Both the position numbers and the translations under genes were made by a program. From Gemmatimonadota bacterium (GTDB lineage Bacteria > Gemmatimonadota > Gemmatimonadetes > Gemmatimonadales > GWC2-71-9), in NCBI GenBank assembly GCA_003222195.1, contig QHVB01000027.1, forward strand, positions 62,001 to 126,000: a stretch of DNA of 64,000 bases. The letters run 5' to 3'. Positions 60,413 to 62,293 of this stretch are shown piece by piece. The notes beneath the pieces are model-generated. The model made no database searches. It was given only the letters and a program-made list of their open reading frames with translations, and was not told the DNA's origin. Each line of letters begins with the position of its first letter. Position 1 is the stretch's first letter.

Positions 60413-60982
60413 GTGCTCACGACATTCGTTCTCGCCGCACTGCTGCAGCAGCCGGCGACACCGCCACCACCGCCACCGGGCCCGCCGGCGCTCGCAGTCG
60501 GTGCCCAAGCGCCTGACTTTTCGATTCCCGGCGCCACGCGCTACGGGACGCTCAAGAACCCCGCGCGGCTCAGCGACTACAAAGGGAAAACGGTCGTCCT
60601 CGCGTTCTTCTTCAAAGCACGAACGCGTGGCTGAACGATTCAAATGAATGCGTACCGTGATCAGTACGCACAGGTTTTCAAAAACGGCCGCAACGTCGTC
60701 CTCATCGCCATCAGCGCGGATGTCGACACCGCGCTCGCCTCGTGGGCGCGCGACGCGGACTATCCGGTCCTCTTTGCCAGCGATACCGGCTCAGCGGTTG
60801 GAAAAGCGTACGGCGCCTTCAATGCCCAGTACAAGCTCGACAACCGCAATCTGTTCGTGGTAGGACCTGATGGGAAAATCGCCTATCGCGCGACGCCGTT
60901 CCGCGAGATCGATCCGACCGCGTATACGGAGCTGGCGACGGCCATCAACAAGCTGGTTCCCGCGGATACAACGGCGCATTAA
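60413..60982 (+). CDS. Peroxiredoxin with in-frame UGA at the peroxidatic position (probable selenoprotein)
   Basis: One frame from GTG 60413 to TAA 60982 gives 189 residues with a single in-frame TGA at 60632-60634 (residue 74). Residues 1-11 are hydrophobic (LTTFVLAALL), possibly a signal peptide; a Pro-rich spacer follows. The Prx core VGAQAPDFSIPG and VVLAFFFKARTRG-U-TIQM places residue 74 exactly where Prx enzymes have the peroxidatic Cys (TxxC). The PxxxTxxC proline is Phe here. The part after TGA is complete: VVLIAISADVD, LFVVGPDGKIAYR. No Cys is present, so it would be a one-Sec enzyme needing an external thiol reductant. The alternative is a nonsense mutation or pseudogene. The neighbouring TlpA and CcdA suggest periplasmic electron supply. 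Confidence 0.82.
60649..60670 (+). promoter_or_regulatory. Candidate bacterial SECIS stem-loop
   Basis: Perfect 7-bp stem TGCGTAC (60649-60655) / GTACGCA (60664-60670) with an 8-nt loop CGTGATCA, beginning 14 nt after the TGA. Bacterial SECIS elements are small stem-loops just downstream of UGA with G and U at the loop start; here G is the second loop base followed by U. The G lies 22 nt after the UGA, inside the known range. It lies in the coding sequence, as bacterial SECIS elements do. Recognition by SelB is not shown by sequence. Confidence 0.6.
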
Positions 60983-61001: not shown

Positions 61002-61032
61002 GACGGGGCCCGCAGAGCGGGCCCCGTCTTTT
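61002..61032. terminator. Terminator shared by the selenoperoxiredoxin and tlpA genes
   Basis: Perfect 12-bp stem (GACGGGGCCCGC and its complement) with loop AGA and four T residues on the plus strand. It lies in the gap between the convergent genes; the last bases touch the TAA of tlpA. Confidence 0.9.
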
Positions 61033-61540
61033 AGCGGAGCGCGCGCCTCAAGGCTGCTTCGATATCCTGGTCCTCACCGACACCAGTGTAAACAACCTTT
61101 CCTTTCGAATCCAAGACTGCGATGTACGACGTCGAGGGGGCCTGGAACGCCCTCACCGCGGCACCATTGCCGTCCCACAGGAAGGTGAAGGGCATCGGAT
61201 CGCGTTCCAGGTGACGGCGCACGCTGTTTCTGCTCTGATTCACGGCGACCGCGACCACGAGAAACTCCGCTTGATTCCCATACTTTTTCTGCGCGGCTTC
61301 CATCCGCGGCAACAGCGCGGCGCAAATCGGGCACCACGTCGCCCAAAACTCGATGATGACCGGCTTCTTGCCGATCCATTGCGACAGCGCGACCGAATCG
61401 CCGTTGAGATTTTCGAGGGTCACAGCCGGCGGCGTCTCGCCAACCGGAATGCCGATAATGTCCTGAGCGTGCAGCGACACGGGTGCGAAGAGCAACGCCG
61501 CCACGAACGACGCACGACGGACGACGCACGTCTTTACCAT
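61031..61540 (-). CDS. TlpA-like thioredoxin-fold protein
   Basis: 169 residues with a Sec signal peptide (SFVAALLFAPVSLHAQ). The active site is WATWCPICAALLPRM (C-P-I-C), with cis-Pro in APSTSYIAVLD. Such periplasmic thioredoxins (TlpA/ResA) reduce cytochrome c cysteines or peroxiredoxins. The gene overlaps ccdA by 7 bp, so it is translated with it. It faces the selenoperoxiredoxin gene, whose product has no resolving Cys and needs such a donor (inference). Confidence 0.92.
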   Translation of the reverse strand: MVKTCVVRRASFVAALLFAPVSLHAQDIIGIPVGETPPAVTLENLNGDSVALSQWIGKKPVIIEFWATWCPICAALLPRMEAAQKKYGNQAEFLVVAVAVNQSRNSVRRHLERDPMPFTFLWDGNGAAVRAFQAPSTSYIAVLDSKGKVVYTGVGEDQDIEAALRRALR

Positions 61541-62229
61541 ACCTGCCCCGCTTTGACGAAATAGTATTCGGCCATGAGCAGTAGAACCACGCCGGCGACC
61601 TTTTTGATCCACGACATCCAGGCGCCGGCGCGCGGCAGCGCCGCGAGCGCCCCCGAGAACACGCCGACCACGACGAGCAGCGCCGACATGCCCAGCGAAA
61701 ACACGAACAGGTACAGGAATCCAAGCACCGCGCTGCGCGTCGTCGCGACCCAGGTGAGGACGGCGGCGAATGCCGGCGCCCCACAGGGCGCGGCGACGAG
61801 TCCCGACGTCGCGCCCAGCAGAAACACGGCCGGATAGGAGCCGCCGCCGAGGCTCCCCGCCCAGGCGGAAAGCCGCGCGGGCAGTCGCACGGGAATGACC
61901 TCGAGCAACGCCAGGGCGAAGACGAGGAGCAGGTTGCCGATGATGAGCCGGGCCCAGAAGCTCGCGCCGATCGTGCCGAAGAGCGATCCCGACATCCCAG
62001 CGATCATGCCGAGGAGCGCATAGAACAGCGCGAGACCGCTGACGTAGGTGAGCGTCAGCCCGACGGTGCGCCGCCGAGTCCGGCCTTCGACATTGACGCC
62101 GGCGAGTGTCCCCGCGGTGATCGGAATCATCGGATAGATGCAGGGATTCAGGCTCGTCACGATTCCCGCGACGAAAAGCAGTCCCATCGCCAGCAATGGT
62201 TGATGTTGCAACGCCTCAGAGATTCCCAC
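61534..62229 (-). CDS. ccdA: Cytochrome c biogenesis protein CcdA/DsbD-like transmembrane reductase
   Basis: 231 residues from GTG 62229. Six transmembrane helices. Conserved redox cysteines in TSLNPCIYPMIP and AAPCGAPAFA. CcdA moves electrons from cytoplasmic thioredoxin across the membrane to periplasmic partners such as TlpA. A TATTAT lies 6 nt before the GTG on the minus strand. A longer upstream open frame exists but has no membrane or cysteine features and runs through the divergent gene. Confidence 0.93.
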   Translation of the reverse strand: MGISEALQHQPLLAMGLLFVAGIVTSLNPCIYPMIPITAGTLAGVNVEGRTRRRTVGLTLTYVSGLALFYALLGMIAGMSGSLFGTIGASFWARLIIGNLLLVFALALLEVIPVRLPARLSAWAGSLGGGSYPAVFLLGATSGLVAAPCGAPAFAAVLTWVATTRSAVLGFLYLFVFSLGMSALLVVVGVFSGALAALPRAGAWMSWIKKVAGVVLLLMAEYYFVKAGQVW

Positions 62230-62235
62230 GGCGAG

Positions 62236-62293
62236 ATAATAACGCTTTCCGTACAACACGAGCCATCGGGCCAGAGGATTACCGCGTATCTTG
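62236..62293. promoter_or_regulatory. Divergent putative -10 elements between ccdA and the phosphatase-like gene
   Basis: On minus, TATTAT (62236-62241) lies 6 nt before the ccdA GTG at 62229. On plus, TATCTTG (62287-62293) lies 26 nt before the ATG at 62320. The rest of this 90-bp gap is unremarkable. Confidence 0.4.

Follow-up and report, generated by a model that had tools for sequence, protein, structure and literature searches.

Selenocysteine (Sec)-containing peroxiredoxins (Prx) of the TxxU type are an established family, and reviews list Prx TxxU among the known selenoproteins. One survey counts 91 Prx TxxU in 78 organisms, and a 2026 review describes selenoproteins as rarely kept by aerobes. 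The phylum Gemmatimonadota is not mentioned in the selenoprotein reviews and surveys searched by term, and the titles and abstracts of the searchable literature, which leaves out most subscription papers, describe no Gemmatimonadota selenoprotein. Members of the TxxU family (COG1225/PF00578), such as PrxU of Eubacterium acidaminophilum (Sohling 2001; listed in the tables in PMC9312934 and PMC13188914), share the AhpC/TSA fold with the protein predicted here. The likeness extends to a peroxidatic residue that is Sec instead of Cys, to the TxxU motif and to a bacterial SECIS element directly downstream.

Our gene lies near the end of the window, the whole 64-kb stretch of DNA from a soil bacterium of the Gemmatimonadota that was analysed, and occupies positions 60413..60982 of the plus strand, with a GTG start preceded by AAGGA, a TAA stop and a UGA that is apparently read through. 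An earlier sequence-only reading had described a single frame interrupted by one TGA, and re-reading confirmed that the TGA at 60632-60634 is the sole in-frame stop between GTG 60413 and TAA 60980-60982. Frame reading and homologue alignment place this codon at the peroxidatic residue (TRGUT), as that reading had proposed, with Cys homologues carrying TGC or TGT at the same codon. The read-through translation of 189 aa contains no Cys, again in line with the earlier claim, and residue 74 would be Sec, within FFFKARTRGUTIQM. Conventional calling yields the two shorter ORFs foreseen there, 60413-60634 (73 aa) and 60644-60982 (112 aa), and gene callers would enter two such fragments per genome.

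The AhpC/TSA domain spans residues 29-158 of the joined protein, which scores 92.8 bits against Pfam AhpC-TSA (PF00578; cut-off 26). An AlphaFold model (pLDDT 89.5) has a confident Prx fold, and a PDB fold search gave solely Prx among the 50 matches listed, the 1-Cys AhpE included; together, profile and fold place the protein in the Prx superfamily. Thr71, C/U74 and Arg145 are invariant in an alignment of 25 sequences, and from a further alignment we read Arg145 as the likely catalytic Arg. Downstream of the UGA, dN/dS values are 0.08-0.19 against six relatives, which indicates that this half is translated and under selection.

The interrupted frame recurs across the phylum. A search of 61 genomes (that of the window and 60 relatives) recovered, by hand tally from the search table, 44 genomes whose orthologue is interrupted by exactly one TGA in frame, with identities of 47-89% once the window's own genome is excluded. 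In a wider phylum sample, 128 of 150 genomes matched at E 1e-25 or better, the majority with one TGA. Drawing on both samples, we took 112 homologous genes, of which 80 have UGA and 32 have Cys (TGC/TGT) at the same codon. Aligning Cys homologues, a check suggested by the sequence-only reading, placed a Cys codon at the Sec position in 32/112 genes, and other stops or frameshifts in all close relatives, an outcome named there as refuting, did not occur; UGA is kept at this very codon in 80 genes. A Cys copy of this Prx adjoins the UGA copy in tandem at L070, L238, L239, L241 and L266. One homologue (L274, genome G138) has an additional in-frame TAA besides its TGA, possibly reflecting decay or a match that extends past the gene end.

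Downstream of the UGA, a bacterial SECIS-like hairpin occupies 60649..60670 on the plus strand, with a 7-bp stem (60649-60655/60664-60670) and an 8-nt loop (CGTGATCA). Bacterial SECIS elements, as formulated in bSECISearch, are stem-loops shortly past the UGA that carry an early loop G at a distance of 16-37 nt; here the loop G is at 60657, 23 nt past the UGA. The hairpin lies 15 nt past the UGA in all 80 UGA genes and occurs in no Cys gene. Its near-invariant 20-nt core (60650-60669, plus strand; GCGTACCGTGATCAGTACGC) is exact in 72/80 UGA genes and has one mismatch in the remaining 8/80, as against three to eight mismatches in the 30 Cys genes compared. The codons GCG TAC CGT GAT CAG TAC are near-fixed in UGA genes and variable in Cys genes; the residues AYRDQYA are often common to Cys genes, and the freezing of codons is confined to UGA genes.

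The closing base pair of the stem joins the third positions of two codons; it is G-C, C-G or T-A in 63 of the 80 genes and A-T in one. This total of 64/80 standard pairs compares with a mean of 26 and a maximum of 41 in 2000 shuffles, which ignore relatedness, and the pair underwent 16 state changes on the tree. The folding energy of the 60-nt context is unremarkable (z-score 0.08), and that of the hairpin cut to 26 nt is favourable (z-score -2.99). The argument for the hairpin is one of conservation and covariation. Neither Rfam at gathering thresholds nor ARAGORN gave a match on the 64-kb window. Judged from these sequence patterns, the hairpin is evidently maintained by selection at the RNA level.

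Scanning named genomes with the hairpin core matched at least 118 stretches, and among the matches listed most records bear the name of Gemmatimonadota or of one of its subgroups. Of those listed, 80 loci were opened, and in every one a TGA stands exactly 18 nt upstream of the core and in a peroxiredoxin frame. The records L103, L135, L147 and L161 are named as Acidobacteria, Gammaproteobacteria or Terrabacteria; since their sequence or neighbours match Gemmatimonadota loci, binning or naming errors are likely. A record named Anaeromyxobacter (L168 682-719) has the identical 20-nt hairpin and a UGA in a Prx of another kind, with an identity of about 41% over 144 residues and with the motif Pro kept, for which transfer, shared ancestry and misbinning are alternative origins.

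The sequence-only reading had pointed to selA, selB, selC and selD as the genes to look for: selA, tRNA-Sec (anticodon TCA) and selD are present in the window's genome, which is therefore not one devoid of Sec machinery, and selB was not found in this assembly (rated 99.8% complete, 95 contigs). The selD gene shares its contig with the window and has its own UGA in SHGAGUACK (L217 1531-1533, G000:C17); selD of this genome is itself a selenoprotein gene (GAGUACK). Congeners do have selB, and in five of them it is flanked by clpB on one side and cobalamin-transport-like genes on the other. In congener G008 this block (btuF-like, selB, clpB, tadA) covers ~15 kb, and the 18-kb stretch around its selB (L086 1-18001) has no orthologous match in the window's genome. 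A match to the clpB stretch of G008 was rejected as clpB, being clpC at 47% identity. Because the whole surrounding gene block is also missing, an assembly gap is likelier than a true loss of selB, and the absence of selB is weakened as an argument against Sec. Counting fragments, selA and/or selB occur in 43/44 genomes with the UGA form and in 0/4 that have the Cys form alone, of which two are single-contig assemblies (Fisher p 3e-5, for a small contrast hand-tallied from search tables that ignores relatedness).

We consider it very probable that the gene encodes a Sec-containing, Cys-free peroxiredoxin: the conserved UGA, the hairpin linked to it, the Cys orthologues and the Sec machinery all support the functional selenoprotein that the sequence-only reading had put forward. 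A lone in-frame stop in an assembly of 95 contigs would ordinarily be taken as a sign of decay, or as a sequencing or assembly error in a single genome, yet the identical TGA recurs in dozens of independently assembled genomes, purifying selection continues past it and the hairpin is linked to it. Pseudogenization or error is ruled out by this phylum-wide conservation, and we leave it practically no probability.

Reassignment of UGA, or its reading by a near-cognate tRNA with insertion of Trp, Arg or Cys and no use of selenium, would fit an assembly in which selB is not seen, but it sits badly with a genome that has tRNA-Sec, selA and selD, with orthologues that have Cys at the UGA codon, with a hairpin exclusive to UGA genes and with the lack of selA and selB in genomes that have only the Cys form; we regard it as highly improbable. 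Scarcely more credible is termination at the UGA followed by re-initiation at ATG 60644, giving two working pieces or a selenium switch. That ATG lies 9 nt past the UGA and is kept in 78/80 UGA genes, but the same Met occurs in 27/30 Cys genes, where re-initiation is needless, and the Prx fold would be cut at its active site.

With a Sec-containing product as the preferred reading, gene context suggests where and how the enzyme may work. The N-terminus (60413..60472, plus strand) consists of a hydrophobic stretch (MLTTFVLAALLQQPA) and a Pro-rich linker, a weak signal peptide, whereas that of most relatives is clear, and 95/110 homologues pass a simple, crude signal peptide test of our own making. 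Members of this genus have a short start that carries no charge, and this gene lacks the positive charge, which makes export of its product less sure. Convergent to the Prx gene lies a TlpA/ResA-like thioredoxin-fold protein with a WCPIC motif (61031..61540, minus strand), and a CcdA/DsbD transmembrane electron carrier follows (61534..62250, minus strand). A tlpA-like gene is found within 2.5 kb in 70/110 loci, mostly at 0.5-0.7 kb and convergent, with ccdA usually beyond; some loci in this count appear under two identifiers, and some of the 40 without tlpA are cut short.

We propose that SelB, whose gene the congeners have, would bind the hairpin and bring Sec-tRNA to the UGA, and that the enzyme would work outside the cytoplasm, as the signal peptides of its relatives suggest. 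By analogy with Prx chemistry, its selenolate would reduce peroxides and be converted to selenenic acid. Cys is absent from the matched domain in 77/80 UGA proteins, which thus have no resolving thiol, and recycling of the oxidised enzyme would need a thiol from outside. Gene neighbourhood makes the CxxC protein TlpA the most likely reductant, which may in turn receive electrons from CcdA, both genes adjoining that of the Prx.

Prx enzymes have a PxxxTxxC active-site motif. At the position of its Pro, alignment places Phe67 (TTC, 60611..60613, plus strand), and this gene consequently departs from the motif, which a 2026 review describes as highly conserved in Sec forms (PxxxTxxU). Replacement is common in these homologues: the Pro is replaced in 68/80 Sec forms, mostly by Phe or Tyr, and kept in 32/32 Cys forms (Fisher p 1e-17 over 110 genes, relatedness ignored). 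The tree shows 10 changes between Sec and Cys and 8 changes at the Pro, and where Cys genes are nested within groups of Sec genes they have the Pro. A test of independent pairs falls below significance because well supported branches supply only three pairs, none of them in the opposite direction. The link between Sec and loss of the Pro is striking but not proven. More tentatively, at a level just short of an even chance, the homologues may form a distinct, Gemmatimonadota-wide class of exported one-Sec Prx in which Sec released the motif Pro and TlpA/CcdA provide recycling outside the cytoplasm.

Gemmatimonadota, a phylum familiar mainly through metagenomes of soil and water, appear to use selenium-dependent peroxide defence outside the cytoplasm. 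The near-fixed 20-nt hairpin offers a ready probe for such genes, and the Pro change, found only with Sec, amounts to a natural experiment on the role of the motif Pro in peroxiredoxins.

Comparison with described systems helps to place this protein. A second UGA peroxiredoxin in the same genome (L003 1501-1887; G000:C94, minus strand) is PrxQ/BCP-like, reads FYPGNNTPGU/TPGUNRQL, and keeps its UGA and subsequent nucleotides in 8/10 relatives read. It likewise would have Sec at the peroxidatic position; it differs in its 28% identity to our protein, its retained Pro and its other sequence downstream, and no signal peptide was seen in the stretch read. AhpE, the 1-Cys Prx of Mycobacterium tuberculosis (1xvw, 1xxu), resembles our protein in fold (TM-score 0.87 over AhpE) and in having a single catalytic residue, but that residue is Cys, the Pro is in place by alignment and identity is about 30%; AhpE is not known to have a signal peptide. 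Against the PrxU equivalog model (NCBIfam NF040737) our protein scores 57.4 bits, below the cut-off of 270. Unlike TxxU-type Prx, the Gemmatimonadota form is without other Cys, has a secretion signal in most members and in most carries Phe or Tyr at the motif Pro. The TxxU family itself is already known; the apparent novelty lies in a branch of exported proteins with one Sec and no Cys, whose Sec forms mostly replace the motif Pro.
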